Positions 3,887-48,452 of a stretch of DNA of 55,868 nucleotides are shown in pieces. The stretch lies in NCBI GenBank assembly GCA_937921555.1, contig CAKZUV010000071.1, positions 1 to 55,868 of the forward strand, in the 5' to 3' direction. This stretch comes from an uncultured Saprospiraceae bacterium. GTDB lineage: Bacteria > Bacteroidota > Bacteroidia > Chitinophagales > Saprospiraceae. The first letter of the stretch is position 1. Every line of letters starts with the position of its first letter. The notes under the pieces were generated by a model, which saw only the letters and a list, made by a program, of their open reading frames with translations, was not told where the DNA came from and ran no database searches. Made by a program: the position numbers and the translations under genes.

Positions 3887-4003
3887 AAGACCTAATTTTG
3901 GGTGAATGTATTCTTTTTGGCTTACTTCCTCTCTTATATGACTAAATATACACAATTAAGGGGGAAAAACCAAATAAAATTTCACATTATATCTGAAAAA
4001 TAA

Positions 4004-20098: not shown

Positions 20099-21499
20099 AT
20101 GCCTAAAGTAGCTCACCCAACGCCACGCGTCATCCTAAAAAAGAAATCTAAAGACGCAAAAACTGGATTCCTTTATCTCAAATTCTGGTACGATTCAAAG
20201 AAAGTACACTATCCAATTGGTGATTCAGTTGAGATTAAATATTGGAATAAAAAAGCTGGTGTAACCACTTTTAATAAAAAGTATGGCCAAGAATATATTG
20301 ACTTGAATAGTAAGATACAATCTTTCAAGCGGTGGGCTTTGGATACGTATAAGGCTGATCATGATTTATCAGTAGAAGATTTTAAAAAAGAGCTTGACTA
20401 TTTATCTGGAAGGCTAAAACGTCCTTCCACTATTACTACTCCTACTCTATTCAAATTCATTGAAGATTACATTGAAACTAAACAGAATTCCGTTTCTAGC
20501 AAACGAGGTACCTGGAAAAAATTTAAAACGGTATTCAATAATCTTAAATTATTCGCAGAAGAAAAGAAAATAACGCTGGACTATAATGATATCGATTGGA
20601 AGTTCAGAGAAGAATTTGTAGAATGGATGTATAGTCCACCCCGCAAATACTCTGCTAATAATGCGGCCAAGGTTTTTGAGGTTATTAAACAGTTTATGAA
20701 CGAGGCACTTAGATTAGAATATCATAATAACAAACGACATCAGGAAAATGGCTTTGGGGTGAAACGTGAAAAAGTTCAGAGTAAGGTACGCGTAACCTTT
20801 GAGGAACTTCGAGAATTGATAAATGTTGATCTTTCCGAAAGACCTCGCTGGGAACGAACAAGAGATTTATTTGTAGTCGGTTGTTATACCGGATTACGTT
20901 TTTCTGATTGGCACAAGATTTCTAAGGATAGTATTGAAGAAGAAGATGGTGAAAAGTTGTTAGAAATATTAACCGAAAAAACAAAGCAACTTGTTATGAT
21001 TCCAATATTACCTGAACTCCAGATCATCTTGGAAAAATATGATTATATTCTACCAAGTGTCTCTGCTCAAGAATTTAATCGTACTATAAAAAAAGTTGCT
21101 AAATTGGTTCTGAAAGAAAAAACTTTCACTCGTACTTTTAATACAGCTGGTCAAACGAAAAAAGAAAAATCATTACGATGTAAGTGGATTTCTAGTCACT
21201 GTGCTCGCCGCTCTTTTGCTTCAAATTTTTACGAGCTAGGAGTTGAGCCGTCCGGATTGATGCAGATTACCGGACACTCTACTGAAAAACAATTTTTTGA
21301 ATACATAGATATTAATAAAAGAGCTGAGGCAAAAAGGTTTAGAATTATCGTCACCAAAAAATTAGAGCAGGAAAAAGAAAAGGAGCAGGAGCAGGAAAAA
21401 GAGAAAGAACAGGAACAAATACAGGAGCAGGATTATATGCAGGATCAAGATCACAATAAGGGGCAAGTACAAGAACAATTACAGGTGTATGAATATTGA
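20099..21499 (+). CDS. int: Tyrosine recombinase / integrase of the element
   Basis: The 466-residue protein has an N-terminal arm-binding domain (residues about 1-100), a SAM-like core-binding domain (about 115-215) and a catalytic domain. The catalytic residues are Arg267 in TGLRFSDWH, His367 and Arg370 in SSHCARRSF, His393 in GHSTEKQF and the nucleophile Tyr402 in FFEYIDI. It performs site-specific integration and excision. An unusual C-terminal tail of about 45 residues is almost all Lys/Glu/Gln (EKEKEQEQEKEKEQEQ...). It is orphaned from conjugation genes, since none are visible in the window. It sits beside the tRNA-like att site as expected. Confidence 0.92.
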   Translation: MPKVAHPTPRVILKKKSKDAKTGFLYLKFWYDSKKVHYPIGDSVEIKYWNKKAGVTTFNKKYGQEYIDLNSKIQSFKRWALDTYKADHDLSVEDFKKELDYLSGRLKRPSTITTPTLFKFIEDYIETKQNSVSSKRGTWKKFKTVFNNLKLFAEEKKITLDYNDIDWKFREEFVEWMYSPPRKYSANNAAKVFEVIKQFMNEALRLEYHNNKRHQENGFGVKREKVQSKVRVTFEELRELINVDLSERPRWERTRDLFVVGCYTGLRFSDWHKISKDSIEEEDGEKLLEILTEKTKQLVMIPILPELQIILEKYDYILPSVSAQEFNRTIKKVAKLVLKEKTFTRTFNTAGQTKKEKSLRCKWISSHCARRSFASNFYELGVEPSGLMQITGHSTEKQFFEYIDINKRAEAKRFRIIVTKKLEQEKEKEQEQEKEKEQEQIQEQDYMQDQDHNKGQVQEQLQVYEY

Positions 21500-24772: not shown

Positions 24773-27031
24773 ATGAAAGATATCTCTCTTTTTAAAAATT
24801 TCACAACTGTAATTGGAAGTCGAACTTTAGCTGAAATTGTCAACGGTATCAAAGGAGATCATTTTAAAAAAACAATTTTAGAAATTCAAAATTTTATAAA
24901 AAATGGCAAGAAAGAAAAGGCGAGTCATTTAAAAAAAGGATTAGTGGCTTTTACCGTTTCGGGGTTATTTGAAGGAGGTCGAAAGTTGTCTTTTTTAAAG
25001 TCATATAATCCATTTGTAATTTTAGATATTGACAGATTGGATTCAGAGATTTTATCAGATTTAGTTCTTAAGATAAATAACATTGATTTTACAAGAGTTG
25101 CTTTTAAGAGTCCGAGTGACCAAGGATTGAAGATTATTATAGAGGTAGATTCTGGAATGAAGATGCATGGTCATGCTTATCAACAGGTCAGTAGTTTTTA
25201 TGAAAAAGAATTGGAAGTAGCAATTGATAAAAGTGGAAAAGATATTACACGACTTTGTTTTATGTCTCATGATCCGGCTATTTATTTCAATCAAGAAAGC
25301 ACTGTTTTTAAGGTATTGAAATATGACATGGAGGTAAATAATTCAAGTAGTAAAAAAGAGGAAATTTCTCCGAAAAGAACAACAGATAATTCGATCAACT
25401 CCAAGATGAATTATGTGAAGGCCTTTGAAATTTGCGTCACTCAAGCCAATGCTAAATTGGTATTTGAAAAAGGCAATCGAAATAATTATATTTATAGGTT
25501 GGGCATCATTTGTAGTCATGCGGGAATTCCTTTGGAGGTGGCAGTCAAGGAGAGTAAGAAGAGGTTTGATTTTAATGATAATGAAATAGAACGGACAATC
25601 AAAAGTGCCTATGATTGGCAGCCCTACCCTTCTGAAATTTCAAATGGCAAATCATCCATCGAACTGCCTAGTGAGGTTCCTCCAGTGATTCCAGCGAAAG
25701 TGTTTGATCAGTTACCTATTTTATTAAAAGGGGGTTCTGAAGTTCTAAAAGATCAACGAGAACGAGATGTTTTTCTCACGGGAGCTTTAGGAGTTCTGAG
25801 TGGTTTGTTGCCAAAAGTGAGCGGAGTTTATGATGGTCATATTTGTTTTCCAAATTTATTCGTTTTTGTGATTGCTCCAGCGGCAAGTGGAAAAGGTGCT
25901 TTGAAGTTTTCTAAGTGTTTAGGATCGGCTTATCATGATGAATTATTGGAGGTGAGTAAAAAAGAAAAACAGGATTATAAAAAAGCTTTAGTAAGGTTTG
26001 AGATAGAAAGTACGAAGTATAGAAAAGGGAAAATTGAAACACAACCAGAATCACCAGAAGAACGAGGTTTTAAAACTTTATTTATTCCGGCCAACTCGAG
26101 TTCTGCTATGTTGATCCGACATTTAAATCAGAATGAAGATTCAGGGATTCTATTTGAGTCAGAAGCAGATACTTTGGGAAATGTTTTAAAACAAGATTGG
26201 GGTGGATATTCAGACTTATTGAGAAAGGCTTATCACCATGAGCCTATTTCTTACAGTAGAAAATCAAATAGTGATTTTATAGAGATTGCAGAACCAAAAT
26301 TATCAGTTGCTTTGTCTGGAACACCTGGTCAGGTAACGAATTTGATTCCTTCAGCAGAAGATGGTTTATTTTCTAGATTTGTGTTTTATGCTTTTGAAGT
26401 TGAGTCCATTTGGCGAGATGTTTCACCGCAAGGAAGAAGTCATAATTTTCAAAATTTCTATCAAGGATTATCAAGAGAGGTTTTGGAGATGGTACATTTT
26501 CTTAAGTTGCATCCAACGGAATTTAATCTATCAAAAGCACAGTGGAAAATGTTGAATGAGACCTTTAAAAAGTTGATGGAGGAAACGAATGAGATGTTTG
26601 GGACAGAAGCCTTAAGTATTGTAAAACGAATGGGATTGGTTTGCTTTAGAATAGCTATGATTTTATCAACGATCAGAAGATTTGAGGAAAAGAGTTTAGA
26701 CCCGAAGCTTATCTGTAAAGACGATGATTTTCAAGCAGCTATTTGGTTATCAGAGACTTATTTTAAACATGGAGTTTTTGTTTATGATCGATTGCCAAGA
26801 TATCAGACGAATAAGTTCCAGTTTAAGAATGTTAAAAAGCAATTATTTTTTGATGCTTTGCCAGAACGATTTATAAGAAAAGAAGTTTTAGAACTTTGTT
26901 CAAATTTTAATATTTCAAAACGATCAGGAATTAGGTATTTACGAGAATTAACCATTTCAGGATTTTTAGTCCAGTCTCCTATTGGCAAATTTGGGGAATA
27001 TTTTAAGCAATCAGATGGTACGGTGGCATAG
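24773..27031 (+). CDS. Primase-helicase: VirE_N/BT4734-like domain plus DUF3987
   Basis: The protein has 752 residues. Residues 1-185 form a VirE_N/BT4734-type domain with an FVILDIDRLD acidic motif (Asp85, Asp87), an SPSDQGLKIIIEV segment and DITRLCFMSHDP, an arrangement reminiscent of archaeo-eukaryotic primases. A linker helix region (about 215-290) follows. Residues about 300-560 are DUF3987 with a P-loop-like APAASGKGALKF, FESEADTLGNVLKQDWGGYSDLLRKAYHHE and LSGTPGQVTNLI. A C-terminal winged-helix-like tail ends in the stop at 27031. It probably primes and unwinds the element's DNA during replication. The TGGCAC repeats begin inside its last codons. Confidence 0.8.
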   Translation: MKDISLFKNFTTVIGSRTLAEIVNGIKGDHFKKTILEIQNFIKNGKKEKASHLKKGLVAFTVSGLFEGGRKLSFLKSYNPFVILDIDRLDSEILSDLVLKINNIDFTRVAFKSPSDQGLKIIIEVDSGMKMHGHAYQQVSSFYEKELEVAIDKSGKDITRLCFMSHDPAIYFNQESTVFKVLKYDMEVNNSSSKKEEISPKRTTDNSINSKMNYVKAFEICVTQANAKLVFEKGNRNNYIYRLGIICSHAGIPLEVAVKESKKRFDFNDNEIERTIKSAYDWQPYPSEISNGKSSIELPSEVPPVIPAKVFDQLPILLKGGSEVLKDQRERDVFLTGALGVLSGLLPKVSGVYDGHICFPNLFVFVIAPAASGKGALKFSKCLGSAYHDELLEVSKKEKQDYKKALVRFEIESTKYRKGKIETQPESPEERGFKTLFIPANSSSAMLIRHLNQNEDSGILFESEADTLGNVLKQDWGGYSDLLRKAYHHEPISYSRKSNSDFIEIAEPKLSVALSGTPGQVTNLIPSAEDGLFSRFVFYAFEVESIWRDVSPQGRSHNFQNFYQGLSREVLEMVHFLKLHPTEFNLSKAQWKMLNETFKKLMEETNEMFGTEALSIVKRMGLVCFRIAMILSTIRRFEEKSLDPKLICKDDDFQAAIWLSETYFKHGVFVYDRLPRYQTNKFQFKNVKKQLFFDALPERFIRKEVLELCSNFNISKRSGIRYLRELTISGFLVQSPIGKFGEYFKQSDGTVA

Positions 27032-27075
27032 TTGGCACGGTTGGAACACTTTAGAAAATAGATCCAACTGTGCCA
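27016..27075 (+). repeat. First cluster of 9-bp TGGCAC-type repeats
   Basis: Head-to-tail units TGGTACGG (27016-27023), TGGCATAGT (27024-27032), TGGCACGGT (27033-27041) and TGGAACACT (27042-27050) are followed by TTAGAAAA. An inverted unit ACTGTGCCA (27067-27075) closes the cluster. It overlaps the stop of the primase-helicase gene. Confidence 0.7.
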
Positions 27076-27182
27076 ATAATTTTATCACTACCATGGTCTT
27101 TGATTGGAAAATAATGCCAGTCTTTAGTATTTAAAGTAATTACAAAGCAACTGAAAGAACAAGTGCTTTTAAATATAGAAGG

Positions 27183-27251
27183 TGGCACGATTGGCACAGT
27201 TGGCACACATTAGAAAAAAATACAACCGTGCCAACCGTGCCAACTGTGCCA
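27183..27251 (+). repeat. Second cluster: three forward and three inverted 9-bp TGGCAC repeats
   Basis: Forward units lie at 27183-27191, 27192-27200 and 27201-27209 (TGGCACGAT, TGGCACAGT, TGGCACACA). TTAGAAAAAAA and a short spacer follow, then inverted units at 27225-27233, 27234-27242 and 27243-27251 (ACCGTGCCA twice, ACTGTGCCA). The whole forms a 27-bp dyad. It repeats the plan of the cluster at 27016-27075, including the TTAGAAAA centre. Confidence 0.75.
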
Positions 27252-27330: not shown

Positions 27331-27687
27331 ATGAAAACTAAGAGAAAACTAAAAAAATATTTAAAAATCTTGAGAAAGGAAAAAGAACATATCTGCTACG
27401 AAATGGAGCTAGAATATAAGATTATCAAATGCAAATTACATCATTCTTACGAGTGGGAAATGAGGTTTAGAAAAGCGGTGAAAAAAGTAAAGACCAAAAA
27501 ACGATTTAGGAAAGCGTTGGCTAAAAGGTTGGGTGTTAAGTATTCAGAGGTAAAAAATTTATTTCCGGTTAGTTTGAATTCTACTTTGATCGCTAATTAT
27601 TTGAATCCTCACCTTAGTTTTTATAGTCATGAAGAAATTAGAAATATTTGTCAGGAGTTGAAGTTGGAGTTTGATGATTTTCCGTAA
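27331..27687 (+). CDS. Small basic protein of unknown function
   Basis: This 118-residue protein has an extremely Lys/Arg-rich N-terminal half (MKTKRKLKKYLKILRKEKEH; FRKAVKKVKTKKRFRKALAK), with a possible HTH-like segment AKRLGVKYSEVKNLF. The C-terminal half ends YLNPHLSFYSHEEIRNICQELKLEFDDFP. Nucleic-acid binding is plausible from the charge alone; the family is not recognised. Its last 45 codons are duplicated, with a frameshift, at 28895-29035. It starts 80 bp after the inverted TGGCAC cluster, which could act as its operator. Confidence 0.55.
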   Translation: MKTKRKLKKYLKILRKEKEHICYEMELEYKIIKCKLHHSYEWEMRFRKAVKKVKTKKRFRKALAKRLGVKYSEVKNLFPVSLNSTLIANYLNPHLSFYSHEEIRNICQELKLEFDDFP

Positions 27688-27732
27688 AGCTGGTCCCGTC
27701 ACAAGAGCTTGCTTTCGCGCATTAGCTGGGCT

Positions 27733-27810
27733 GAGCACTTGTTCCTGGCGCTCGCGCAGCTGCTCTTCGCGCTTGGCCTTTAGCAGAGCAGCAGCACTCC
27801 TAACCAATTC
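27733..27810 (+). repeat. G+C-rich hairpin repeat, copy A
   Basis: The stem GCTGCTC/GAGCAGC (27769-27775 with 27785-27793 region), with flanking GC/GC pairs, sits in an otherwise A+T-rich region. Copy B at 28758-28838 has the same arrangement with a compensated base pair (GCTACTC/GAGTAGC). Both copies precede or follow small unknown genes. Confidence 0.55.
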
Positions 27811-27823
27811 AACCATCGTAATC

Positions 27824-28693
27824 ATGACTAAATATAAATATAGTAGGGAAGATCGGATAAAACTTTCCATAAAAGCCAAGGAGATTAAATCACAGTTTCC
27901 AAAAGAAAGTAAACCTGATAAGAAATTATTAAATCTTGATCTAATGATTGTTATGGCTCGGAACTATTTAAAATCTTCGTATGCATATAAGCATTTACGT
28001 TATGGTAACGCGTGGCCAAAGGAAGGTATTCTTTATATTGAAGTTTCAAGATCACTGATTGACCGAGCGCTTAGGTTTACCAATAGCTTTATTCTTCTAT
28101 GCAAATTGAGAGGTCATGATATAATTATCAGAAAAAGAAAAACTATACTAATTGTTGAAGGAGAGGAATATAAAATTAGAATTGTAGAAAAACGTGAAAA
28201 GGTAGTTGATAGATCTGGTAAGTATGAAGAATTTCATTGGATTCCAAATGGCAAATTATCTTTAAAAATTGATTCCTGGGATCCTCAGGAATGGTGTGAC
28301 ACTAAAACCAAACGTCTGGAAGATCAATTACCCAAGTTGGTGGCAGCATTTGAATTGAGAGCCCAAAAGGATATTGCAGATAGGGAGAAATGGAAACTTG
28401 AGAGGATGGAAGAAACAAGACTAAGGGAGATGGAAGAAAATGAGCAAGTCGAGATTCGTTGGAAAAATATAAAAGTTGAAATGCTACGGAAAGATTTAAT
28501 GAAGTGGAATGAAGCACAAAATTTTTCTAATTTTATCCATGAGCTGGAAAAACAAAAGAACCTGTCTAAGAAACAAGAGGATTGGATAATTTGGGCAAAA
28601 GGGGTAGTAGCAGATTTAGATCCATTGTCTAAGGGTGCGGGTGAATTAATGGATCGGTATGAGTTTAAAAATATTGTGAATTCAGAATCATGA
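27824..28693 (+). CDS. Unknown helical protein of the element (289 residues)
   Basis: I place the start at 27824 (MTKYKYSREDRIKLSIKAKE). The frame is open from 27671, but that part runs through the G+C-rich repeat copy A and reads as low-complexity Ala/Arg/Ser. The protein has a mixed alpha/beta N-terminal half (YIEVSRSLIDRALRFTNSFILLCKLRGHDIIIRKRKTILIVEGEEYKIRIVEKREK) and a long coiled-coil-like charged C-terminus (ADREKWKLERMEETRLREMEENEQVEIRW). Similar proteins are known as uncharacterised products in Bacteroidota genomes. I assign no function. It is flanked by both copies of the G+C-rich repeat. Confidence 0.6.
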   Translation: MTKYKYSREDRIKLSIKAKEIKSQFPKESKPDKKLLNLDLMIVMARNYLKSSYAYKHLRYGNAWPKEGILYIEVSRSLIDRALRFTNSFILLCKLRGHDIIIRKRKTILIVEGEEYKIRIVEKREKVVDRSGKYEEFHWIPNGKLSLKIDSWDPQEWCDTKTKRLEDQLPKLVAAFELRAQKDIADREKWKLERMEETRLREMEENEQVEIRWKNIKVEMLRKDLMKWNEAQNFSNFIHELEKQKNLSKKQEDWIIWAKGVVADLDPLSKGAGELMDRYEFKNIVNSES

Positions 28694-28757
28694 TATTAGT
28701 GGGAAATTTATGTTATTAATGTGATGCCTTAGAAAGATCGTTCCCAAGAGTTTGAAA

Positions 28758-28838
28758 ATAAACACTTGTACACTGACGCTCGTGCAGCTACTCTTCACAC
28801 AAAGCTTTAAACTGAGTAGCAGCACTTAGGCCCCCAAT
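28758..28838 (+). repeat. G+C-rich hairpin repeat, copy B
   Basis: It aligns with copy A from CACTTGT through CAGCACT. The stem is GCTACTC/GAGTAGC, with an added GTGC/GCAC outer helix around an A-A mismatch. The stem differs from copy A by a paired change. It lies after the 27824-28693 gene. Confidence 0.55.
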
Positions 28839-28888
28839 CTCTAATTACTGATTCTGCCCAACCAATCTCCCACGCTTCGGTGGAAGAT
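28832..28888 (+). repeat. TTCG-loop hairpin repeat, copy 1
   Basis: Positions 28832-28888 align with 29913-29969 (CCCCAA...CTAA(C/T)TACTGATT...AAC...ATCTCCCA(C/T)GCTTCGGTGG). Each ends in an 8-bp stem with a GCTTCG-type loop. Both lie downstream of a rightward gene. Confidence 0.6.
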
Positions 28889-28894
28889 CGAGCT

Positions 28895-29035
28895 GTTTTT
28901 TCTAGTTTTGTTTCAATGCTACCTTGATTGTTAATTATCTAAATCCACATTTTAGCTTTATGTAAGCATAAGGGGATTAGGGCTGTTTATAAGGAGTTGA
29001 AGTTGGAGTTTGATAATTTTCTGTGAGGGATTGAG
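28895..29035 (+). pseudogene. Decayed duplicate of the 3' end of the 27331-27687 gene
   Basis: The sequence follows the last 45 codons of that gene. NYLNPHFSF is in one frame, then a one-base deletion shifts the frame, and the end reads IRAVYKELKLEFDNFL (compare IRNICQELKLEFDDFP). No start codon or upstream part remains. Confidence 0.7.
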
Positions 29036-29191
29036 GAATTATTTTTGACAAACAATTTTTGTGGTAAGTCATTCATCAACCGTTAATTGGTTTGGAAAAT
29101 AATGATAGTCAAAGGTGTGTTTGTAACATCTGCAAAAAAGAGAAAAAGTTGTACCTTGTGAGTTTTTAGTTATTACAGACAAACAGAAAAA

Positions 29192-29887
29192 ATGACAAAA
29201 CAAATAATAATTCTTTTGATATTCTTAATTCCTGTTTTTGGTTTTTGCCAAAATAGTTGGTTCGTCAAATTAAATTCGAATCCAAGACTGAGTTGGTTAA
29301 ATGATAAGGGTTCTAAAATAAATCTGACAAGTTCTATTTCTGCGACTGTTGGATATGAATTTTCAAAAAAGATAAGTATAGAAACAGGCTTATATTTAAA
29401 TAGAGTTGGATATCGTCTTGAGAGAACGCTGGAGAGAGTGGGTGTAACTGAAGGTATTAACTCTTACATTTTGGAAGGTGAAATACCAGTTAAACAAAAG
29501 TTTAAAGAAAAATTCGTTGGAGTTCCGCTACAATTAAATTACAAGTTCTTAGAAAGGGATAAGTTCAATCTATTTGCTTATTCAAATTTATCAATTAACC
29601 GTTACAACAAATCCGATCACAAATGGTGGTACTATTACGAAGCAGCAAATGAATTTTCTACAGATAATACCTTTACCTGGAATGGAAGGCAAAAGATGAA
29701 TCTTAGTTTTGAGCTAGGTGTATATCTCGAACAAAAATTGTTTAAAGAAATATCTATTCTTGGAGGGATAAATTATTTGCATTTATTTCATAAAAAAAAC
29801 CTTCTTATCTCTGAAAAAAGTAGCCAATTCTCTAATGTTGGGATAATTCTTGGATTCAGGCACAGTCTCAAAAAGATAAAAGAGTGA
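29192..29887 (+). CDS. Outer-membrane beta-barrel protein (PorT/OmpA-barrel type)
   Basis: The 231-residue protein has a signal peptide (MTKQIIILLIFLIPVFGFCQ). Alternating beta strands follow (SATVGYEFSKKISIETGLYLNRVGYRL, VGVPLQLNYKFLERDKFNLFAYSNLS, MNLSFELGVYLEQKLFKEISILGGINYLHL) and the end strand is NVGIILGFRHSLKKI. This is the typical small eight-stranded barrel of Bacteroidota outer membranes (outer membrane protein beta-barrel domain). Its cargo function within the element is unknown. It is flanked by the TTCG-hairpin repeats. Confidence 0.75.
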   Translation: MTKQIIILLIFLIPVFGFCQNSWFVKLNSNPRLSWLNDKGSKINLTSSISATVGYEFSKKISIETGLYLNRVGYRLERTLERVGVTEGINSYILEGEIPVKQKFKEKFVGVPLQLNYKFLERDKFNLFAYSNLSINRYNKSDHKWWYYYEAANEFSTDNTFTWNGRQKMNLSFELGVYLEQKLFKEISILGGINYLHLFHKKNLLISEKSSQFSNVGIILGFRHSLKKIKE

Positions 29888-29912: not shown

Positions 29913-29969
29913 CCCCAAAACTCTAACTACTGATTTTCCCAAACTATCTCCCATGCTTCGGTGGGAGAT
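29913..29969 (+). repeat. TTCG-loop hairpin repeat, copy 2
   Basis: See copy 1 at 28832-28888. The stem here is perfect (ATCTCCCA 29946-29953 with TGGGAGAT 29962-29969). It starts 25 bp after the stop of the beta-barrel gene and may act as a terminator or mRNA end without a strong T-run. Confidence 0.6.
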
Positions 29970-29989
29970 TTACAAACCCGCTCTTTGAT

Positions 29990-30270
29990 AATCGATTCCT
30001 TTTAAATTATATACTGGTTTAGCCGATGGCTTCAAAAAACCAGCGCGCAGGAGTGGCTTGCATCGGCTCATGGCCGCATGCACCTTTTTGCTGGCGCCTG
30101 CCAACGCATCAGATCCGGGCTGCGGGCGCTTGTTCCTGCCTCCGTCCAAACCCGCGAATCCTCAGCAGTCACTGACACTTGCCAGCAGCCCCTCTCTGAG
30201 CTTTCCCTCGTCAATTGGAACAAGGCCTTTAGGTTTTCATTTTTGGCCTGTGAGGGTTGGCTCAGGTGGC
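29990..30270. other. G+C-rich non-coding patch inside A+T-rich element
   Basis: The composition changes abruptly. Dyads are visible, for example TGCATCGGC/GCCGcATGCA around 30058-30080. It carries GTTCCTGCCTCCG (30132-30144), identical to 13 bases of the candidate att core. Frames are open by composition but look like no protein. The block could be a remnant of another insertion. Confidence 0.4.
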
Positions 30271-30660
30271 TTAGAAGAGTCGCAGCGGTTTGGTTAGTTG
30301 GTTTGTTTCTGGTGTTAGTTCGGCGGCTAGTTTTCCAGCTTTGGTTGCTTTGCGGTAGGTGTCGCCCGTGCCGCCTTTTCGTTCCCTTCCTTTTTTGTAT
30401 ACGCAGATTACTTTATCGGCTAGTTTTACCAGTTCGGTGTTTCTGATTAGTGGTGCGTATTTTCCGTGGTTTTGGTAGTCGGGTTTTATTACTGTTTTTG
30501 GTAGTTGGTTTTCTGTGGCGTAGCGGTCGGCCAGTGTATCCACGCCTTTTGCACCTCCGTGTAGGATGTGTGTTGGGTGCATGGTTTTTAGTAGGTTTTC
30601 CAGTTGCGTGTAAGTGTTGTTATCGTTTAGTTTTCTGGAGCCGCTTATCAGTATTTTCAT
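30271..30660 (-). CDS. SLOG-family DUF2493 protein (YspA-like)
   Basis: The protein has 129 residues. The Rossmann-like SLOG signature is clear: MKILISGSRKL at the N-terminus, HGGAKGVDTLADRYA in the middle, then KPDYQNHGKYAPLIRNTELVKLADKVICVY. SLOG domains bind nucleotides or nucleotide-derived ligands. Several members are associated with phage-derived conflict systems, and the DUF2493 type is frequent on mobile elements. The specific ligand is unknown. It is transcribed opposite to its neighbours, with the promoter region shared with the 30770 gene. The G+C-rich patch begins just beyond its stop. Confidence 0.75.
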   Translation of the reverse strand: MKILISGSRKLNDNNTYTQLENLLKTMHPTHILHGGAKGVDTLADRYATENQLPKTVIKPDYQNHGKYAPLIRNTELVKLADKVICVYKKGRERKGGTGDTYRKATKAGKLAAELTPETNQLTKPLRLF

Positions 30661-30703
30661 ACTATAAATATACGTTTTTTATTTCATTTTTTGATACATT
30701 TTG

Positions 30704-30735
30704 TTTGTTTTTTGTGTCATTTATGCGTATCTTTA
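30704..30735 (+). promoter_or_regulatory. Promoter for the 30770-33228 gene cluster
   Basis: TTTG (30704-30707), 20 bases, then TATCTTTA (30728-30735), about 35 bp before the ATG at 30770. It matches the Bacteroidota consensus except for the last -7 base. Confidence 0.55.
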
Positions 30736-30769
30736 TAGTACAAGATTACACACATAAACTTATAAAACT

Positions 30770-31018
30770 ATGATAAATTTTAATTTACAATCAGATTACT
30801 TTGAACAAGAAATGTTAGCTGCAAATTATGAGCCACCGCCAGTTCGAGAAGAGGCAGAATGGGAGGTGATGTTGGCAGAAATGAAAGTGGCTATTTTGAA
30901 AAATGAAACTGCGAAGGCTCGAAAATTAATGTATAGTTTAGAGTTTAAAATCCATGAGGCTAGAATGAAATCTTTTAATGAAGGATTTGAATGTGGTTCC
31001 GCTCCGCTTCCTTTCTAA
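30770..31018 (+). CDS. Small unknown protein (82 residues)
   Basis: Mostly helical and acidic: SDYFEQEMLAANYEPPPVREEAEWEVMLAEMKVAILKNETAKARKLMYSLEFKIHEARM. There is no signal peptide or membrane segment. It is the first gene after a good promoter and probably heads a cluster of small genes running to the RecE-like nuclease. The family is not recognised. Confidence 0.55.
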   Translation: MINFNLQSDYFEQEMLAANYEPPPVREEAEWEVMLAEMKVAILKNETAKARKLMYSLEFKIHEARMKSFNEGFECGSAPLPF

Positions 31019-31040
31019 AAAATAAAACTTAAAATTTACG

Positions 31041-31373
31041 ATGACTTATTTGATTCATTTCTACGAGGAATGTCCAGCCACTTGTATGGATATCGAGATC
31101 GAAATTACTTTTACATGTGACGAGAAAGAAGGCCAAGAAAACTTTTGGGGTTATCCGGTTGCTGTTCCTGCCAGTAATCATATTGAGATATTGGAGGTTG
31201 TAAAAAACGGGGAGACTTGGAATAATTATCCTGATTCTATAACCGATGAAATACATAAACACGATTGGGAACCAGTATCGGATTTCTCAAACGTAATGGC
31301 CTGTGAGCCGAAACCAGAATATTCTATAAAAACCATAAAACTAAAATCATGGAAAAAACAATTAGCTGCTTAG
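31041..31373 (+). CDS. Small unknown protein (110 residues)
   Basis: An acidic, beta-rich protein (MTYLIHFYEECPATCMDIEIEITFTCDEKEGQENFWGYPVAVPASNHIEILEV) with a C-terminal IHKHDWEP...KTIKLKSW segment. Two near-N-terminal Cys residues (Cys11, Cys15) could bind a metal, but there is no second pair. It follows the previous gene after 22 bp and overlaps the next by 25 bp, so it is part of the same transcript. The family is not recognised. Confidence 0.55.
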   Translation: MTYLIHFYEECPATCMDIEIEITFTCDEKEGQENFWGYPVAVPASNHIEILEVVKNGETWNNYPDSITDEIHKHDWEPVSDFSNVMACEPKPEYSIKTIKLKSWKKQLAA

Positions 31374-31534
31374 TAAAGGAACAATTAGCGATGGTCGGAA
31401 AAACGGCCACGGATTTACAAATCAAAAGAGCGTATCACCGAAATTATGATCGACGACGGGGAAGCGGTGGGAATCGATTTTATATCGCCACTCATATTGT
31501 AAGCTATTTAACACTAAATAAAATTATAGATTAA
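31349..31534 (+). CDS. Small basic unknown protein (61 residues)
   Basis: Read from an ATG that overlaps the previous gene by 25 bp. The sequence MEKTISCLVKEQLAMVGKTATDLQIKRAYHRNYDRRRGSGGNRFYIATHIVSYL is compact and basic. The coding potential is supported only by context and by the lack of another frame, so it is less certain than its neighbours. Confidence 0.4.
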   Translation: MEKTISCLVKEQLAMVGKTATDLQIKRAYHRNYDRRRGSGGNRFYIATHIVSYLTLNKIID

Positions 31535-33278: not shown

Positions 33279-34097
33279 TCATTTCTCCCAAACAATACTG
33301 AGAATATTTTTAAAAGATTCCGTTACGATACAATATTCATAGAATTCCGTATCCTCTTCATAATCATTTAGTTTAAAATAGGTTGATTTAGAGATCGACT
33401 GTTGCAATTCTTCTTTTTTATATATCGGTTTATAGTCTGATTGAATATATTCTAGTGCTACTGAATCTACAGGAGGCGGTAGCTTAACAATATCATTTAC
33501 AAATACTCTTAGGTCATCAGATTTTTTCCAATACCTTACTTTTCCATTAAAAATATGAAAGATCGCTATCGGATGCAATCCAGTATCAAAATATTTAAAC
33601 ACAACAGAGGTTAAACTTGTAATAAACCGTTCAGCTAATTTTTTTATCAATTTCGGGCCAAAGAACTTTCCTTTTGCCTCTGAGAAGAATAAAGTAGTTG
33701 GCATTAAATATTCTGTTGCAAACTGATTTGCTTCATACTCTTGAAAGCCTCTTTTAAGTTTTTTTTCAACATTATTAAACCATTCAAGGCTAACGTTATC
33801 ATCATGAAGTGGACTTCCTTTGTGCATTTCTAAATGTCCTAATTCATGCGCAATTGCAAACCGTCTTCGCCCTTCATATCGGATATCTGAATTTATGAAT
33901 ATAGTACAAATCCTTTTGCCATAAACAATTCTACCATCTGTCTTGCCCATTGACTTATATTGCAGAACTCCTCCTCTACCTAGGACAACATCCTCCAAAG
34001 TAAAATCATTAGGATCCTCCATTCCAATTTCTTCTCTTAACCTTATAGCTGCTAGTTTTCCTTTATTCATCTTCAGAACTGGCATCAATTTCATCAA
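33279..34097 (-). CDS. ImmA/IrrE-family metallopeptidase, CapP-like position next to CBASS
   Basis: The 272-residue protein carries the zinc motif HELGH (residues 84-88) in RRRFAIAHELGHLEMHKGS. A second conserved segment, EYEANQFATEYLMP, supplies the third ligand Glu. This is the ImmA/IrrE family, whose members cleave repressors or anti-sigma-like partners. It is the third gene of a leftward operon with the sigma-like and the 139-residue proteins, overlapping the latter by 35 bp. The operon is divergent from a CBASS operon. CapP proteases of this family are known to release CBASS repression by cleaving CapH; a comparable role is inference here. Confidence 0.8.
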   Translation of the reverse strand: MMKLMPVLKMNKGKLAAIRLREEIGMEDPNDFTLEDVVLGRGGVLQYKSMGKTDGRIVYGKRICTIFINSDIRYEGRRRFAIAHELGHLEMHKGSPLHDDNVSLEWFNNVEKKLKRGFQEYEANQFATEYLMPTTLFFSEAKGKFFGPKLIKKLAERFITSLTSVVFKYFDTGLHPIAIFHIFNGKVRYWKKSDDLRVFVNDIVKLPPPVDSVALEYIQSDYKPIYKKEELQQSISKSTYFKLNDYEEDTEFYEYCIVTESFKNILSIVWEK

Positions 34098-34482
34098 ACA
34101 AAGCAGTTAAGTCTAACTGCTCTAAGATATTACTCATTTCTTCCTTAGTCATTTTATCAAAGTTTCGATAATTAGCCGCTAACCCATATTCATCTACATG
34201 TTTTTTGAAAATAGAAAAGACGTTTTCTTTGTCCTTATCTTTTAAGGATTGTAACCGGCCCGATGCTTCTGCGATAGAAATGACTCTTGCAACTCTAACC
34301 TTTTGAATATGAGTTTTTGATTTAAAAAGTATTTGCTTGATAAGCTTTCTGTATTTCTCAGATTGTCCCTCGTAGATTTCTTCAATATCAGCAAGTGTAT
34401 CTCGATCATTTGAATAATCTTTATCCAAATAAGAACTAAGTAATCCGTCTTCAATTTTTTTTAATAACTCCTTTTTACTCAT
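34063..34482 (-). CDS. Unknown helical 139-residue protein between sigma-like and ImmA genes
   Basis: It is predicted to be all-helical and highly charged, with no clear HTH, membrane or signal segment. It contains TLADIEEIYEGQSEKYRKLIKQI, HIQKVRVARVISIAEASGRLQSLKDK, and an acidic C-terminus LEQLDLTALFDEIDASSEDE. It overlaps the sigma-like gene by 8 bp and the protease gene by 35 bp, so the three are coupled. Position and size suit an anti-sigma or protease-substrate role (compare CapH in CapH/CapP pairs), but I see no sequence evidence for this and do not recognise the family. Confidence 0.6.
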   Translation of the reverse strand: MSKKELLKKIEDGLLSSYLDKDYSNDRDTLADIEEIYEGQSEKYRKLIKQILFKSKTHIQKVRVARVISIAEASGRLQSLKDKDKENVFSIFKKHVDEYGLAANYRNFDKMTKEEMSNILEQLDLTALFDEIDASSEDE

Positions 34483-35044
34483 TACTTTTAGAATTTAGTA
34501 ATTCTCTAATTGGGTTGAGTTTTCTTTCCAGTCTTTTTATTCCCTTATAAACTTCTTTTATATCGAGTTTCCAAAAATCAGCAATATATTGTGGTTTTTT
34601 CATTTCGTCCATCCAAGATTCAAATATCATACCTTCAATCTCATCGGGCGGTGGAATATTTTCACTTAACCTTTTACTTAATTTAACTTTTAACGCTTCA
34701 GTCTCAACACTGTTTCCAGAATCAAGACCTGAAAAATTTTCCAACTTGACTTCGTAGTCGATGCTCATGACTTTCCCACCATACTGATCATTGTATTGAC
34801 TAATTAAGCTTTTAACAGCTAAAAATAAAAAACTTTTAAAGGAATAGGATTTATTCCACTTTCTTACACCTGTAACAGTTTTTTCGAAAATATCGCCTAC
34901 TAGCTTTTCTGCAGATACAACATCATTTCCTTTCATTTGATTTAGAGCATAAGTTACTAAATCATGGAAAAGTAACACAAGATTGTGAGACTCCAATTCG
35001 TCTAAAATTTCTTTAGGCGTTGCTATGTTTTTATCTGATTTCAA
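34475..35044 (-). CDS. Sigma-70-like (ECF-type) protein
   Basis: The protein has 189 residues. A region-2-like segment (SAEKLVGDIFEKTVTGVRKWNKSYSFKSFLFLAVKSLISQYNDQYG) follows the pattern of ECF sigma factors. The C-terminus, KPQYIADFWKLDIKEVYKGIKRLERKLNPI, looks like a region-4 HTH (iAexlxixxxxVykxxkRLxRxL). The middle segment (residues 95-140) is a linker. It is the first gene of the leftward operon and directly faces the CBASS operon across 119 bp. Promoter recognition for its own operon, the CBASS operon, or both is inferred. It could instead be a catalytically silent sigma-like adaptor. Confidence 0.6.
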   Translation of the reverse strand: MKSDKNIATPKEILDELESHNLVLLFHDLVTYALNQMKGNDVVSAEKLVGDIFEKTVTGVRKWNKSYSFKSFLFLAVKSLISQYNDQYGGKVMSIDYEVKLENFSGLDSGNSVETEALKVKLSKRLSENIPPPDEIEGMIFESWMDEMKKPQYIADFWKLDIKEVYKGIKRLERKLNPIRELLNSKSNE

Positions 35045-35070
35045 TAATAATAGCTCAGTTTTTGAAAAAA

Positions 35071-35088
35071 TTTGCCGTTGATGGCAAA
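35071..35088. promoter_or_regulatory. Dyad TTTGCC-N6-GGCAAA in the shared sigma-like/CBASS control region
   Basis: TTTGCC (35071-35076) and GGCAAA (35083-35088) form a perfect 6-bp inverted repeat. It lies 27 bp from the sigma-like gene start and 76 bp before the CBASS effector start, a position suitable for an operator of both. Confidence 0.5.
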
Positions 35089-35163
35089 AAATGAAAAAAT
35101 ATCAGCTTATATAGGTGTAGGGAAGAACAATAATACACAAAAGGTACCTAATACATAGACACT

Positions 35164-35988
35164 ATGAATAGATTTTTCTTAAAGATTATGGCTGTAGTCG
35201 GATTTTTTATTTCAGCTAAATGGTTTGCAAGCAATGAGTTACGACCAAATTTATACGGGATGGCGATAGGTTCAGCTGTCACTCTTCTAATAGATACGGT
35301 AATATTTTTTCGGAGGGAGCGAAACTTTTTACAACTCTACTTTAACTCCTTAATTCTAAACCGGGATAAAGAAATTAGACTTTCAATTGCCTACTTATAT
35401 AAAATTGAATGCCACGGTAAATATCTTTTGGTTCGAAATGACCGATTTGATAATGTTGCTTACCAACCAGTAGGTGGAGTATATAAATATTTTCATCCAG
35501 AGGCTACTGACAATTTACTGAAGATGTCAGTCATTCCAGATAATGCTATTGAAAATGATAGAAAAAGCGAATTTGACTTACGCTCAAAAATGAAAAATCG
35601 GAAATATTTAAGAAAGTTTCTTAAATGGTTTTATGATTCAAAAGAAAGAGAAATAGATCCATGGAGGGAATTCCATGAGGAATTGATTGAGCCTAATATT
35701 CTACCAGCAGAGCACTTTAGCTTTATTTACTATAAGTTGGTCGCGCAACATTTTGAACCAATAAAAAAAGATGAACATTACGGAATTGACACTTTTAAAT
35801 ATGTTGATGTCTATACACCTAGGTTTATAAATCAAAAACAAAAAGATGAAGTTGAAAAACTTCTAGAAATCAAAAGTGATAAATTTATTTGGGTCACAGA
35901 AGCTGAAATCAGGAAAAAACGTAGTAAAGAAGGTAAACGAATTGCACCTCATACAAATAAAATATTTTTCAACAAAAAATTAAACTAA
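35164..35988 (+). CDS. cap16: CBASS effector: two-transmembrane plus NUDIX-like domain (Cap16-like)
   Basis: The 274 residues begin with two hydrophobic helices (about 5-23 and 31-49), forming a small membrane anchor. The rest is a SMODS-associated NUDIX domain: IECHGKYLLVRNDRFDNVAYQPVGGVYKYF, then a NUDIX-box core REFHEEL (168-174) in DPWREFHEELIEPNIL. The box is incomplete relative to Gx5Ex7REUxEExGU, so ligand sensing is more likely than hydrolysis. The known family (Cap16) perturbs the inner membrane when the NUDIX domain binds a cyclic nucleotide. It is the first gene of the CBASS operon and overlaps the cyclase gene by one base. Confidence 0.75.
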   Translation: MNRFFLKIMAVVGFFISAKWFASNELRPNLYGMAIGSAVTLLIDTVIFFRRERNFLQLYFNSLILNRDKEIRLSIAYLYKIECHGKYLLVRNDRFDNVAYQPVGGVYKYFHPEATDNLLKMSVIPDNAIENDRKSEFDLRSKMKNRKYLRKFLKWFYDSKEREIDPWREFHEELIEPNILPAEHFSFIYYKLVAQHFEPIKKDEHYGIDTFKYVDVYTPRFINQKQKDEVEKLLEIKSDKFIWVTEAEIRKKRSKEGKRIAPHTNKIFFNKKLN

Positions 35989-37115
35989 TGTTAGTAATTG
36001 AAACTAGAGCAACTCAGATGGATGATTTGCTCAACGAAATGGCAAAAGAAGTTCAACTTGATGAAGCTAGATATAAAAGAATGATATCAAGCTATGAAGC
36101 GGTTAGTACTTGGATCGAATCTGACGAGAAATTTTTCAAACCATTTAAGTATAAAATTTATCCTCACGGTTCGGTTAGAATATTTACAACGGTAAAGCCC
36201 ATAGGAAAAGATGAATTTGATTTAGACATGGTTCTCCATTTTATGATTAGTACTATACTTCATAGTCCCGAAAGAATTTATTCTGAGCTAAAACGCAGAC
36301 TTAATGAGCATAAGACTTACCGTGGAATGCTTGAGCCAAAAAGTAGAGTTCTAAGATTAAACTATTCAGGTGATTTTCATATGGACTTGATGCCAGGTGT
36401 TCAGGATAATAGATTGGATGAGAATAAAATAAGAGTGCCTGATCGTACCCTTGGGATGTGGGTCAGCAGCAACCCGAGAGGATATGCAGATTGGTTCATG
36501 AAAAAAGCGAATATGGTAAAACTAAGTCTATTGGAAAAAAGCTTTAGCAATGAGAAAATTCAAGCAGATAACTTCAATAATAAAAAGCCATTACAGCGCG
36601 CAGTTCAGCTGATAAAACGTTATCGTGATATTTACTTTGAAAAGGATGACCAATACAAAACAAGAAGCATTATTTTGACAACAATAGCTGGACAATTCTA
36701 CGGCGGAGAGGATAGTATTTTTGAAACAGTAGATAATATTATCTCAAAAATCCAATTACAGTCTAGCTTTCCTGAGAGACTCAAAGTTTTTAATCCCGTT
36801 AATCCTGAGGAGGACTTTACAGACAAATGGGATAAAGAGCCTCAATATTATGAAGAATTTAAAAAATTTGTTGTTCACCTTCATAATGAATGGCAAAAAC
36901 TAAAAAAGGAAAATGGAGTAATTGAAGAATCAAGAATCTTCAAGGGATTATTTGGAGACAAATTATTTACCGATGTACAGTTACGGAGAACCGCGGGGAT
37001 TAGTACACAACGTAAAAGTGGGGATTTGGTAATTTCTAGAGATACCGGAATAATTTCTAAGACCAGAGACTCTAATTATGACAAAATAAGAAAAAATACA
37101 TTTTTCGGAGAATGA
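35988..37115 (+). CDS. CD-NTase: CBASS cyclic-oligonucleotide synthase (SMODS domain)
   Basis: The 375 residues carry the polymerase-beta-type nucleotidyltransferase site: GS at residues 61-62 in YPHGSVRIF, the paired acids Asp78/Asp80 in KDEFDLDMVLHF, and a third Asp133 in FHMDLMPG. The SMODS layout and the C-terminal helical region (PLQRAVQLIKRYRDIYFEK) fit CBASS cyclases, which make cyclic di- or trinucleotides on phage infection. The ATG overlaps the effector stop (TAATG). The next gene, an E2-like protein, overlaps the 3' end by 4 bp and should modify or prime this enzyme. The nucleotide product cannot be predicted from sequence by eye. Confidence 0.85.
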   Translation: MLVIETRATQMDDLLNEMAKEVQLDEARYKRMISSYEAVSTWIESDEKFFKPFKYKIYPHGSVRIFTTVKPIGKDEFDLDMVLHFMISTILHSPERIYSELKRRLNEHKTYRGMLEPKSRVLRLNYSGDFHMDLMPGVQDNRLDENKIRVPDRTLGMWVSSNPRGYADWFMKKANMVKLSLLEKSFSNEKIQADNFNNKKPLQRAVQLIKRYRDIYFEKDDQYKTRSIILTTIAGQFYGGEDSIFETVDNIISKIQLQSSFPERLKVFNPVNPEEDFTDKWDKEPQYYEEFKKFVVHLHNEWQKLKKENGVIEESRIFKGLFGDKLFTDVQLRRTAGISTQRKSGDLVISRDTGIISKTRDSNYDKIRKNTFFGE

Positions 37116-37549
37116 AAAAAACAAACAACAAGAAATCTGTGTCCCAACAACTTGGAAACATGAAGGCTAAATACAAATATTTTAAATCGGTGATAAAAAG
37201 AAATTCTATTATTATCAATGGAAAACTTCGTCCTACTGCAAGAAGCGAAGAATATAGCTTTGTTCTTCAATACACCATTAATAAAAAGCCAAGGATTAAA
37301 ATCATCTCACCAAAACTTGTCAAAAATAGTAAGGGCGATGATATTCCACATATGTATAATCAAAAGCATCTTTGCTTATATCAGCCGAAATACAACGAAT
37401 TTAAAAATTCTGATTTCTTATCTGAAACTATAATTCCCTGGATCTCTCTTTGGTTATATTACTATGAACAGTGGCATATAACTGGTGATTGGCTTGGCGG
37501 AGGAGAACATCCTATACTCAAAAAAAGAAATAATGCGAAGAAAAGATAA
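37112..37549 (+). CDS. E2-like ubiquitin-conjugating protein of type II-short CBASS
   Basis: The 145 residues follow the prokaryotic E2-like pattern of type II CBASS: beta-strand YSFVLQYTINKKPRIKIISP, the HMYNQKHLCLYQPKYNEF segment with candidate catalytic Cys88 (and His86), and the family's closing pattern IIPWISLWLYYYEQWHITGDWLGGGEHP. There is no E1 or JAB gene in the operon, which defines the type II-short class. In known cases the E2 conjugates to or activates the CD-NTase. It overlaps the cyclase gene by 4 bp and the fourth operon gene by 17 bp. Confidence 0.8.
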   Translation: MKKTNNKKSVSQQLGNMKAKYKYFKSVIKRNSIIINGKLRPTARSEEYSFVLQYTINKKPRIKIISPKLVKNSKGDDIPHMYNQKHLCLYQPKYNEFKNSDFLSETIIPWISLWLYYYEQWHITGDWLGGGEHPILKKRNNAKKR

Positions 37550-38609
37550 ATACATCATGAATGGGGCAGGTATTGGAATCATATCAGTATCTGTAATAGA
37601 CATACTTTTACAATATCTAGAACATCGTGACGCCAACCTTCCATTTACTTGGGAATCCTTCAATGGGCGTAGAACCGCTGAGCGTGGGGCGCTAGGAGGA
37701 ATCGCTGGTGGATTTTTAGGATATGGATTCTATAATCATAAAATAGCTCAAGAAGCCAAGTTACCTTTTGATCCTGATGCTTATTTGAGTGAGTTACTTA
37801 AAACTGAACAACTTAGTTCAGATCCTAAGCTATCAAAAAAAATGAATTCACTTTCTAGACAAATGAAAATGTGGCTATGGAATGAATTCAAAACAGAACT
37901 CGTGAAATTTCCAGAAGGAACAGGGTCATTGGTTAAAAAACTTGCTCTTGCTTCGTGGTCTGATATTGATCTATTATTACCTTTTAGTAAAAAAAAATCA
38001 AGAACTTCCATAGAAGAAACATACAAAAATGTATATAAAGTTGTTACGGATAAATTTGCAGGTAAGGCAAAAGTATCTAGAAATACTCGAAGCATTCGAT
38101 TGTTGTTATCTTATGATGGAGATGATTTCGATATTGATATTGTTCCAGGAAAAGAAATAAATGACTATAGAAAAGATGGCAAATTGAATTTATACGTCAA
38201 CCCAAGATGGCCTTGGCAAAACGGAGGGCGATTTAAAACGGATGCTAATACTCAGAAATCAATTTCTTCTAATGACCCAAATGTGAGAGCTACCATTATG
38301 CTACTAAAATTATATAATAATATAAACGGACTTGATATTTCTCCATTGGTTATAGAGACTCATACTGTAAACGCATTTTCAAGGAGAAAGTATGCTATTC
38401 AAAATTCAATAACAGAAAATTTGTTAATTGCAATGGAGCATCTTTCTGACAAAATAACGAACCTTAAATTAGAAGATCCTGCTAATTCAAATAACAATCT
38501 CCATCGTAAAATCACCTCGCAATCGGCAGAAAAAATTGTCGTGCAGCTGAGAAAGGATATATACCGCATCGAATCTAATCCACAATATATAAAGGAAATA
38601 TTCTTATAG
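37533..38609 (+). CDS. Second nucleotidyltransferase in the CBASS operon, with hydrophobic Gly-rich N-terminus
   Basis: I choose the start at 37533 (MRRKDKYIMN), giving 358 residues; a later Met at 37557 is possible. A Gly-rich hydrophobic N-terminus (GAGIGIISVSVIDILLQYL; GALGGIAGGFLGYGFY) precedes a polymerase-beta-type nucleotidyltransferase. It has GS at residues 131-132 (PEGTGSLVKKLA), Asp144/Asp146 in SDIDLLLPF and a third acid Asp202 in DFDIDIVPG. All key residues are intact. An OAS/CCA-like helical region follows. It overlaps the E2-like gene by 17 bp, so it is the fourth operon gene. It could be a second cyclase, a nucleotidyltransferase modifying an operon partner, or an inactivating enzyme; I cannot decide. 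Confidence 0.7.
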   Translation: MRRKDKYIMNGAGIGIISVSVIDILLQYLEHRDANLPFTWESFNGRRTAERGALGGIAGGFLGYGFYNHKIAQEAKLPFDPDAYLSELLKTEQLSSDPKLSKKMNSLSRQMKMWLWNEFKTELVKFPEGTGSLVKKLALASWSDIDLLLPFSKKKSRTSIEETYKNVYKVVTDKFAGKAKVSRNTRSIRLLLSYDGDDFDIDIVPGKEINDYRKDGKLNLYVNPRWPWQNGGRFKTDANTQKSISSNDPNVRATIMLLKLYNNINGLDISPLVIETHTVNAFSRRKYAIQNSITENLLIAMEHLSDKITNLKLEDPANSNNNLHRKITSQSAEKIVVQLRKDIYRIESNPQYIKEIFL

Positions 38610-40329: not shown

Positions 40330-41043
40330 TCAATACTTCCAATCCACATGCCGAAACGGCAACCGGTTCAGCTCCTCCCGGTAGAATCGCCACTTAGGCA
40401 TAAACTCATTCATATAGCTAACAAATAAATGATTGTGGCTTCTTTCGAGCAGATGAACCAGTTCGTGGACAATGATAAATTCAATACAACCACGTGGCTT
40501 TTTTGCCAATTCTAGATTTAACCAAATCCGTTTTGCGTTCGTATTACAAGACCCCCATTTGGTTCGCATCTTTTTGATTCTATAATCATTAGACTGCACA
40601 CCGATTTTCTTCTCCCATTTTTGAATCATTTTGGGAACCATTTTTTTTAGCTGCTCCCGGTACCAGTTTTCCAGGATGATCGCTTTCTTTTCTACTGAGG
40701 TATTTGGACGAACATACAATTCAATGGTGCTGTGTTTTAAAACAACCTTTGGTGGTTCCGGAACTTCGATTACCTGGAGAAGGTACCTTTTTCCTAAATA
40801 GTAATGACTTTCTTTCGTTAGATATTCTCGCTCAAATTCTCGATCCTGATTTTGAAAGGTTAATTGTTGTTGCTTAATCCACTTTAATTTGTCCAAGGCA
40901 AATACTCGAATGGTGTCTAAATCGAATCGTTCAGGCGCAGCGATGCGAACCGCTCCATTAGGCGGATATACGCTAAGGTGGATATTTTTGATATCCTTTT
41001 GTTCTACTTCTATTTTTATTTCTCCTAGTACAATTTCTGCCAT
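40330..41043 (-). CDS. YgjP-like (DUF45/WLM) metallopeptidase of the restriction operon
   Basis: The 237 residues include the zinc motif HELVH in EFIIVHELVHLLERSHNHLFVSYMNEFMP, with the third His in HNH. The N-terminal region (MAEIVLGEIKIEVEQKDIKNIHLSVYPPNGAVRIAAPERF and the RTKWGSC signature) is the YgjP/DUF45 type. This family commonly travels with type I restriction operons, where its role is not established. The start overlaps the hsdR stop by one base, so it is translationally coupled as the last gene. Confidence 0.8.
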   Translation of the reverse strand: MAEIVLGEIKIEVEQKDIKNIHLSVYPPNGAVRIAAPERFDLDTIRVFALDKLKWIKQQQLTFQNQDREFEREYLTKESHYYLGKRYLLQVIEVPEPPKVVLKHSTIELYVRPNTSVEKKAIILENWYREQLKKMVPKMIQKWEKKIGVQSNDYRIKKMRTKWGSCNTNAKRIWLNLELAKKPRGCIEFIIVHELVHLLERSHNHLFVSYMNEFMPKWRFYREELNRLPFRHVDWKY

Positions 41044-48428: not shown

Positions 48429-48452
48429 ATTAGGCTAAGGTTTCAACCTCAC

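Follow-up and report, generated by a model that had tools for sequence, protein, structure and literature searches.

The window, which is the whole stretch of 55,868 nucleotides from an uncultured Saprospiraceae bacterium analysed here, holds a mobile element of a primase-bearing family, and repeats of about 100 nt lie in the variable cargo bay of this element. We read the bay as an integron-like gene-cassette array that would use a folded, two-hairpin site other than attC, a reading to which we assign a probability of about 0.48, just short of even. Integrons are the best-known bacterial system collecting single genes as cassettes via folded DNA sites and, to our knowledge, they are rare in this phylum. 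The array reading is supported by ten copies of the repeat, the covariation of their stems, their place beside a gene for a 118-aa protein, the differing cargo, and one cassette with its edges at the 3' arm of the downstream hairpin. The coordinates of all features in the window are collected in Table 1.

Table 1. Features of the mobile element and of its repeat array, in window coordinates.
Feature	Position	Strand	Basis or remark
Tyrosine recombinase, left part of element	20099..21499	+	PF00589 E 1.8e-10
BT4734-like / DUF3987 primase-type protein, backbone	24773..27031	+	PF13148 E 3e-56, PF08800 E 2.6e-28
118-aa gene, left border of array	27331..27687	+	ORF; repeat 3' of the gene in 3/4 intact elements
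Repeat copy A (H1 + H2)	27698..27800	+	First array position, 'attI-like'; R1 match 95.9 bits; begins 11 bp past the 118-aa gene stop
H1 of copy A	27702..27741	+	CAAG-A-GCTT ... GAGC-A-CTTG; 8/8 pairs, one T-G
H2 of copy A	27754..27797	+	GCGC-A-GCTGCTC ... GAGCAGC-A-GCAC; one C-A mismatch in outer stem
3' arm of H2, copy A; most likely left crossover	27786..27792	+	Identity to the G207 element jumps from ~86% to ~97%
ORF289, cargo gene, 289 aa, unknown family	27824..28693	+	ORF, start taken at ATG 27824; pseudogene in G207
Repeat copy B (H1 + H2)	28740..28828	+	R1 match 91.9 bits; appears to travel with ORF289; shared with G207 C400 5291-5378
H1 of copy B	28745..28768	+	CAAG-A-GTTT ... AAAC-A-CTTG; stem compensated relative to copy A
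H2 of copy B	28782..28825	+	GTGC-A-GCTACTC ... GAGTAGC-A-GCAC; stem compensated, with a T-A pair in its outer part
Extension after H2 (GGCC..ATCTCTAATTACTGATT) and terminator-like hairpin 3	28829..28888	+	Repeated at 29913-29969, 84% over 58 nt
Decayed duplicate of the 118-aa gene 3' end	28907..29046	+	76% to 27569-27685; same relic in G207 C400 3095-3234
Cargo gene, outer-membrane beta-barrel protein	29192..29887	+	PF13568 E 1.1e-6
Right border of array	29913..30270	+	Extension without H1-H2, hairpin 3, G+C-rich non-coding DNA; 80% to C386 over 29926-31374
YspA/YAcAr SLOG-family gene, right backbone	30271..30660	-	PF10686 E 5.8e-14

The initial annotation had described a G+C-rich hairpin in two copies, with the stems GCTGCTC/GAGCAGC (27759-27765 and 27786-27792, copy A) and GCTACTC/GAGTAGC (28787-28793 and 28814-28820, copy B), and both sequences are exactly as it gave them. 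This hairpin, H2, is only the 3' half of a larger unit; a second hairpin upstream, H1, had been missed. The repeat measures 88-108 nt across copies, its two hairpins stand 12-13 nt apart, and both follow a common plan of four pairs, a mismatch and then further stem. The copies have a G+C fraction of 0.39-0.60, against ~0.34 in the surrounding DNA, and in the flanks inspected H1 is preceded by GT(T)CA and H2 mostly by CTC. As had been proposed, the loops of copies A and B differ while the pairing is kept, the compensated pair being a change from G-C to A-T. The further outer pair claimed for copy B is also real, since past the A-A mismatch GTGC/GCAC is fully paired in B while GCGC/GCAC of copy A holds one C-A. 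The extension that follows H2 recurs together with hairpin 3 elsewhere in the genome, on contig C386, and alone at copies 3 and 4 of contig C400 in G207, a congeneric Saprospiraceae genome. The terminator-like hairpin ATCTCCCA-TGCTTCGG-TGGGAGAT recurs at array borders (window 28857-28888 and 29938-29969; ~1885-1861 of L034, the C386 locus).

A genome search for further copies, as suggested by the initial annotation, yielded two on C386 with copy A as DNA query (E 3.5e-14 and 2.7e-9) and more in G207, and the pairing is held in all but one truncated copy that lacks H2 (C400 3266-3356). That copy aside, neither of the outcomes that the initial annotation had named as refuting, a lack of more copies or broken pairing in them, was seen. 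With the covariance model R1, which was trained on seven copies, there are ten copies in two of the 398 family genomes, four in the window's own genome (G000) and six in G207. R1 also recovers the three copies on which it was not trained (E 3.2e-14, 3.3e-12 and 3.1e-8); these lie at 317-407 of L056 and 2269-2374 of L057, the G207 loci C724 and C417, and, for the truncated copy, in L040, which is contig C400. No copy was found by R1 in the other 396 family genomes among the few candidates scored per genome, so diverged copies may have been missed. A covariance-model search of the genus returned 17 matches at E<=10 in seven genomes, 10 of them the true copies. The seven weak ones (E 0.02-8.4) were not accepted; the best, on C12 of G000, is a simple tandem repeat. 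Separate matches on C259 of G101 and C58 of G372 span 22 nt only, the G101 match lying inside a coding gene. At the right border of C386 there is a faint H1-H2-like match (9.1 bits, E 3.7), possibly a diverged H1-like hairpin. Beyond the family, a pattern scan of a genome contig collection found a single contig, G207 C400 itself (JALZUU010000400.1); a viral contig collection gave no match to the repeat pattern, the 118-aa protein or YspA, and the phage and plasmid collections held no phage or plasmid with the repeats and no plasmid with ORF289.

It is evident from the alignment that the stems covary. Across the ten copies, 7 of the 19 pairs have changes on both sides and 96.8% of the cells are paired, a share that falls to 23-52% when the 3' arms are slid by 1-3 columns; the seven model copies alone give 6 of 19 pairs and 97.7%. 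None of 500 shuffles reached the observed covariation score, in a control that ignores kinship and uses a ten-row alignment fitted to the structure. These figures support the selection for the hairpin that the initial annotation had proposed. The H2 cells of the truncated copy are spurious, because H2 is lost there. Of the three copies not used in training, the two complete ones have H1 fully paired; H2 is full in L057 and lacks only the innermost pair in L056. The mismatch four pairs into the stem is A-A in H2, and in H1 it is A-A in eight rows and C-A in two; in neither hairpin is it ever a pair in the ten rows, the truncated one included. Two copies have a weaker H2: G3 (L040 2557-2664) makes two of its pairs only as G-T wobbles, and G4 (L040 1438-1541) carries two mismatches. 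Six of the ten copies were folded by minimum energy. The fold of copy A lacks the drawn structure and does not surpass those of shuffled sequences (z 0.65 as DNA, 1.00 as RNA), nor does that of G3, while B and C386b fold better than shuffles.

The element resembles the Bacteroidetes elements that carry a BT4734/DUF3987 protein and a tyrosine recombinase, in that its backbone holds an integrase, an HTH protein (between the tyrosine recombinase and the BT4734/DUF3987 protein), the primase-type protein itself and YspA; it differs from them in the hairpin-jointed cargo bay, none of which was seen in a literature search on such elements. Relatives of YspA occur in 12 of 388 family genomes. No homologue of the tyrosine recombinase was found by tblastn in nine other loci, all of them incomplete. 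C386 carries a paralogous element with the same gene order and blocks at 66-80% identity, and the G+C-rich non-coding DNA at window 30040-30270, beside the YspA-type gene, has 82% identity to C386. The AlphaFold model of the 118-aa protein, made with a possible recombinase role in mind, is all-helical (pLDDT 72), and nothing in the PDB matches it at E<=0.001. The C-terminal half of this protein has diverged relatives (L066 7744-8031 and L067 8067-8378), which are solo chromosomal genes without repeats. Between the primase gene and the 118-aa gene lie clusters of short direct and inverted words (window 27022-27251; L034 ~3947-4290; L056 ~980-1075; L057 ~1440-1830), which differ by element, being TTGGCA-, GTCCAA-, TTGGCC- or TTGCCA-like, and which look like iterons or a replication or transfer origin with element-specific words. 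Elsewhere in the window, genes at 33279-38609 are CBASS-like defence genes (PADLOC: a capP match at E 9e-48, two oligonucleotide-cyclase matches at E 4.7e-141 and 3.2e-43), and the genes at 40330-52039, a putative type I restriction-modification (hsd) locus, enclose two further genes, one of them matching the HEC-06/Orf5/SspE models.

The cargo between the repeats varies from element to element. In the window, C724 and C417, three of the four intact elements, a repeat starts 11-12 bp past the stop of the 118-aa gene, and both G207 loci share the left border of the window element. C417 has a DDE-type transposase gene downstream of its repeat. C724 and C400 share an exact end overlap of 89 bp, and the joined contig reads 118-aa gene, repeat, a broken ORF289, repeat, a gene for a T9SS-secreted protein on the other strand, truncated repeat, 118-aa gene relic and ORF105, repeat, ORF220, repeat, ORF305. 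In the C386 element no repeat adjoins the 118-aa gene; the next genes form a toxin-antitoxin pair (HTH_17 and PIN_3), and two tandem repeats come after them. C724+C400, the window and C386 all show short ORFs in tandem with structurally conserved sites between them, and the cargo comprises ORF289, which has no match in Pfam, PADLOC or NCBIfam, the outer-membrane protein, the T9SS-secreted protein, ORF105, ORF220, ORF305, the HTH and PIN toxin-antitoxin pair and the DDE transposase. That the copies separate genes, as originally remarked, holds for the window and for G207, where the genes between them differ. The leaders of ORF220 and ORF305 (L040) and of the toxin-antitoxin pair (L034) have TTCGATTATATTT in common, next to TTTG-N-TANNTTT, a word like the Bacteroidetes promoter consensus, and this suggests that the three cassettes carry their own promoters.

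ORF289 and the repeat downstream of it are common to the window and G207, and their similarity has sharp edges. Identity between the two elements is 306/354 (86.4%) in the 118-aa gene and 64/75 in the left part of repeat A, and it rises to 36/39 over 27785-27823 and to 624/645 (96.7%) over 27824-28468 of ORF289. The change-point most probably lies at 27787, within the 3' arm of copy A's H2 (2 delta lnL 51.4), with support extending over 27786-27963. On the right, the agreement runs through repeat B up to GAGTAGCAGCA in the 3' arm of H2, beyond which nothing reliable is shared. Among the three copies in first position, that of C417 diverges from the others at roughly the point where the identity of copy A changes. 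Slow evolution of ORF289 explains this poorly, since in G207 the gene is frameshifted and has lost about 230 bases, and since the non-coding spacers match to nearly the same degree as the gene itself. The outer H2 pair that is broken in copy A (C-A) is intact as T-A in L056; if the crossover lay at 27787, the outer 3' strand of this H2 would have come with the cassette, which would explain the broken pair. With the rise of identity and the end of homology both at the 3' arm of H2, it looks as if ORF289 was transferred in one piece with the repeat 3' of it, in the manner of integron cassettes, in one event seen from the sequences of two genomes.

Under the array reading, a cassette would consist of a gene, or no gene, with the repeat downstream of it, and the copy adjoining the 118-aa gene would serve as the fixed entry site. 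We infer that folded single-stranded DNA may be the recognised form of the site, that the mismatch four pairs into each stem may act as the recognition mark and that strand exchange would take place at the 3' arm of H2. Recombination would then be driven by an enzyme, and selection would act on the DNA and not on RNA. The initial annotation had offered RNA or a DNA recombination or cassette site as the reason for such selection; the DNA half is now supported indirectly, in that the copies separate different genes and a gene and its repeat apparently moved as a unit, and the RNA half is weighed below. Several observations count against the array reading: the repeats occur in two genomes only, with one clearly mosaic cassette whose breakpoint support reaches 27963; the 118-aa gene of C386 lacks the adjoining repeat, and the border at 29913 lacks H1-H2; the fold of copy A and the H2 of G3 and G4 are weak; and neither genome has an integron integrase above the cut-off, nor has the window's own tyrosine recombinase a homologue in the other loci searched.

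The repeat could, instead, be a passive REP- or MITE-like palindrome that spread through duplication or the action of a Y1 (IS200/REP-type) transposase, the cargo being swapped by homologous recombination in the repeats and in the tails of the 118-aa gene; recombination of this kind in the repeat could give similar mosaics. In being short, G+C-rich, imperfect hairpins with a conserved stem mismatch, the repeats are like the REP and BIME sequences of TnpA-REP (RAYT), since REP hairpins may have a mismatch in the stem that is needed by the Y1 transposase (PMC8266576). A Y1 subclass with 'atypical' flanking structures is described for Bacteroidetes (PMC6006769), Y1_Tnp genes are present in both genomes, at five loci together, and the decayed tails of the 118-aa gene testify to earlier duplications. 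However, the repeats number only four and six, all in one element family and none scattered, and the GTAG-type tetranucleotide 5' of the palindrome is absent from their flanks. Moreover, near the five Y1_Tnp loci R1 gave no match and BLAST none below E 0.13. Identity with REP/RAYT was rejected for the missing tag, the low copy number and the context, and the mosaic cassette, both edges of which lie at the 3' arm of H2, also speaks against a passive repeat. We consider this explanation unlikely, while placing it first among the rivals of the array reading.

A structured RNA comes close behind in our ranking, likewise unlikely but a live rival. H1-H2 would then regulate or stabilise, as a 3' element, the transcript upstream of it, that of the 118-aa gene, of ORF289 and so on, and would have been carried along when genes were duplicated or exchanged. 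The covarying stems, the copy just past the stop of the 118-aa gene in three of four elements and the single orientation of all copies in the C400 array would suit such a role. Selection on one RNA strand should, however, favour G-U, whereas the non-Watson-Crick cells comprise 8 G-T and 6 A-C on the strand shown, numbers too close to show a clear preference for the putative RNA strand. By eye, no T run, the mark of an intrinsic terminator, follows H2 in nine of the ten copies, those with an intact H2, and one of the genes found between copies is on the opposite strand. The window, the array (at E<=1) and the loci L034, L040 and L057 gave no match to an Rfam 15 family other than two tRNAs, both outside the array. 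A coding role was rejected: a 106-aa minus-strand frame runs over copy A, but the remaining copies have too much divergence and too many indels for a single gene, and no Pfam match was found in the frame.

Least probable by far is a degenerate true integron, that is, a CALIN with unusual attC sites. As in integron and CALIN arrays, tandem ORFs each have a downstream folded repeat that seemingly travels with the gene, the first site is fixed, structure is conserved more than sequence, and the edge of the exchanged unit lies near the 3' end of the site. The length of 88-108 nt is also similar to the 57-141 bp of attC, a site defined as a palindrome flanked by an RYYYAAC inverse core and a GTTRRRY core (PMC3053210). 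A complete integron has been reported from Salinibacter, a member of the Bacteroidetes (PMC9024848). Yet RYYYAAC followed by GTTRRRY occurs in none of nine copies (the truncated one left out), and attC-core pairs across the arrays number 0, 0 and 4, at chance level against means of 0.74, 0.32 and 1.18 in mononucleotide shuffles. Each repeat, moreover, is built of two distinct hairpins, both with a fixed mismatch, in place of one palindrome, and the array sits in a primase-bearing element beside the 118-aa gene. IntI (TIGR02249) was found over cut-off in neither of the two draft genomes; the best match, a 567-aa recombinase on C385, scored 214 bits against a cut-off of 265 and leaves model positions 183-238, which presumably include the IntI-specific insertion, unmatched. 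A missing integrase alone would not exclude an integron, since clusters of attC sites without integrase, the CALINs, are described as common (PMC9668308); the missing core sites do count against one, and attC identity was rejected on motif.

Finally, the array may point beyond integrons altogether. Cassette capture independent of integrons, in which a recombinase of another family would read two-hairpin DNA via its mismatches and exchange strands at the 3' arm of H2, is possible though still doubtful, and no description of such a site was found in a literature search that covered few subscription papers. If this were true, the repeats would represent a second, unrelated site architecture, and hairpin-joined cassette capture would have arisen more than once. 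It would also explain the swapping of small toxin-antitoxin, secreted and unknown genes between mobile elements, and the array provides concrete sites for tests of cassette capture.
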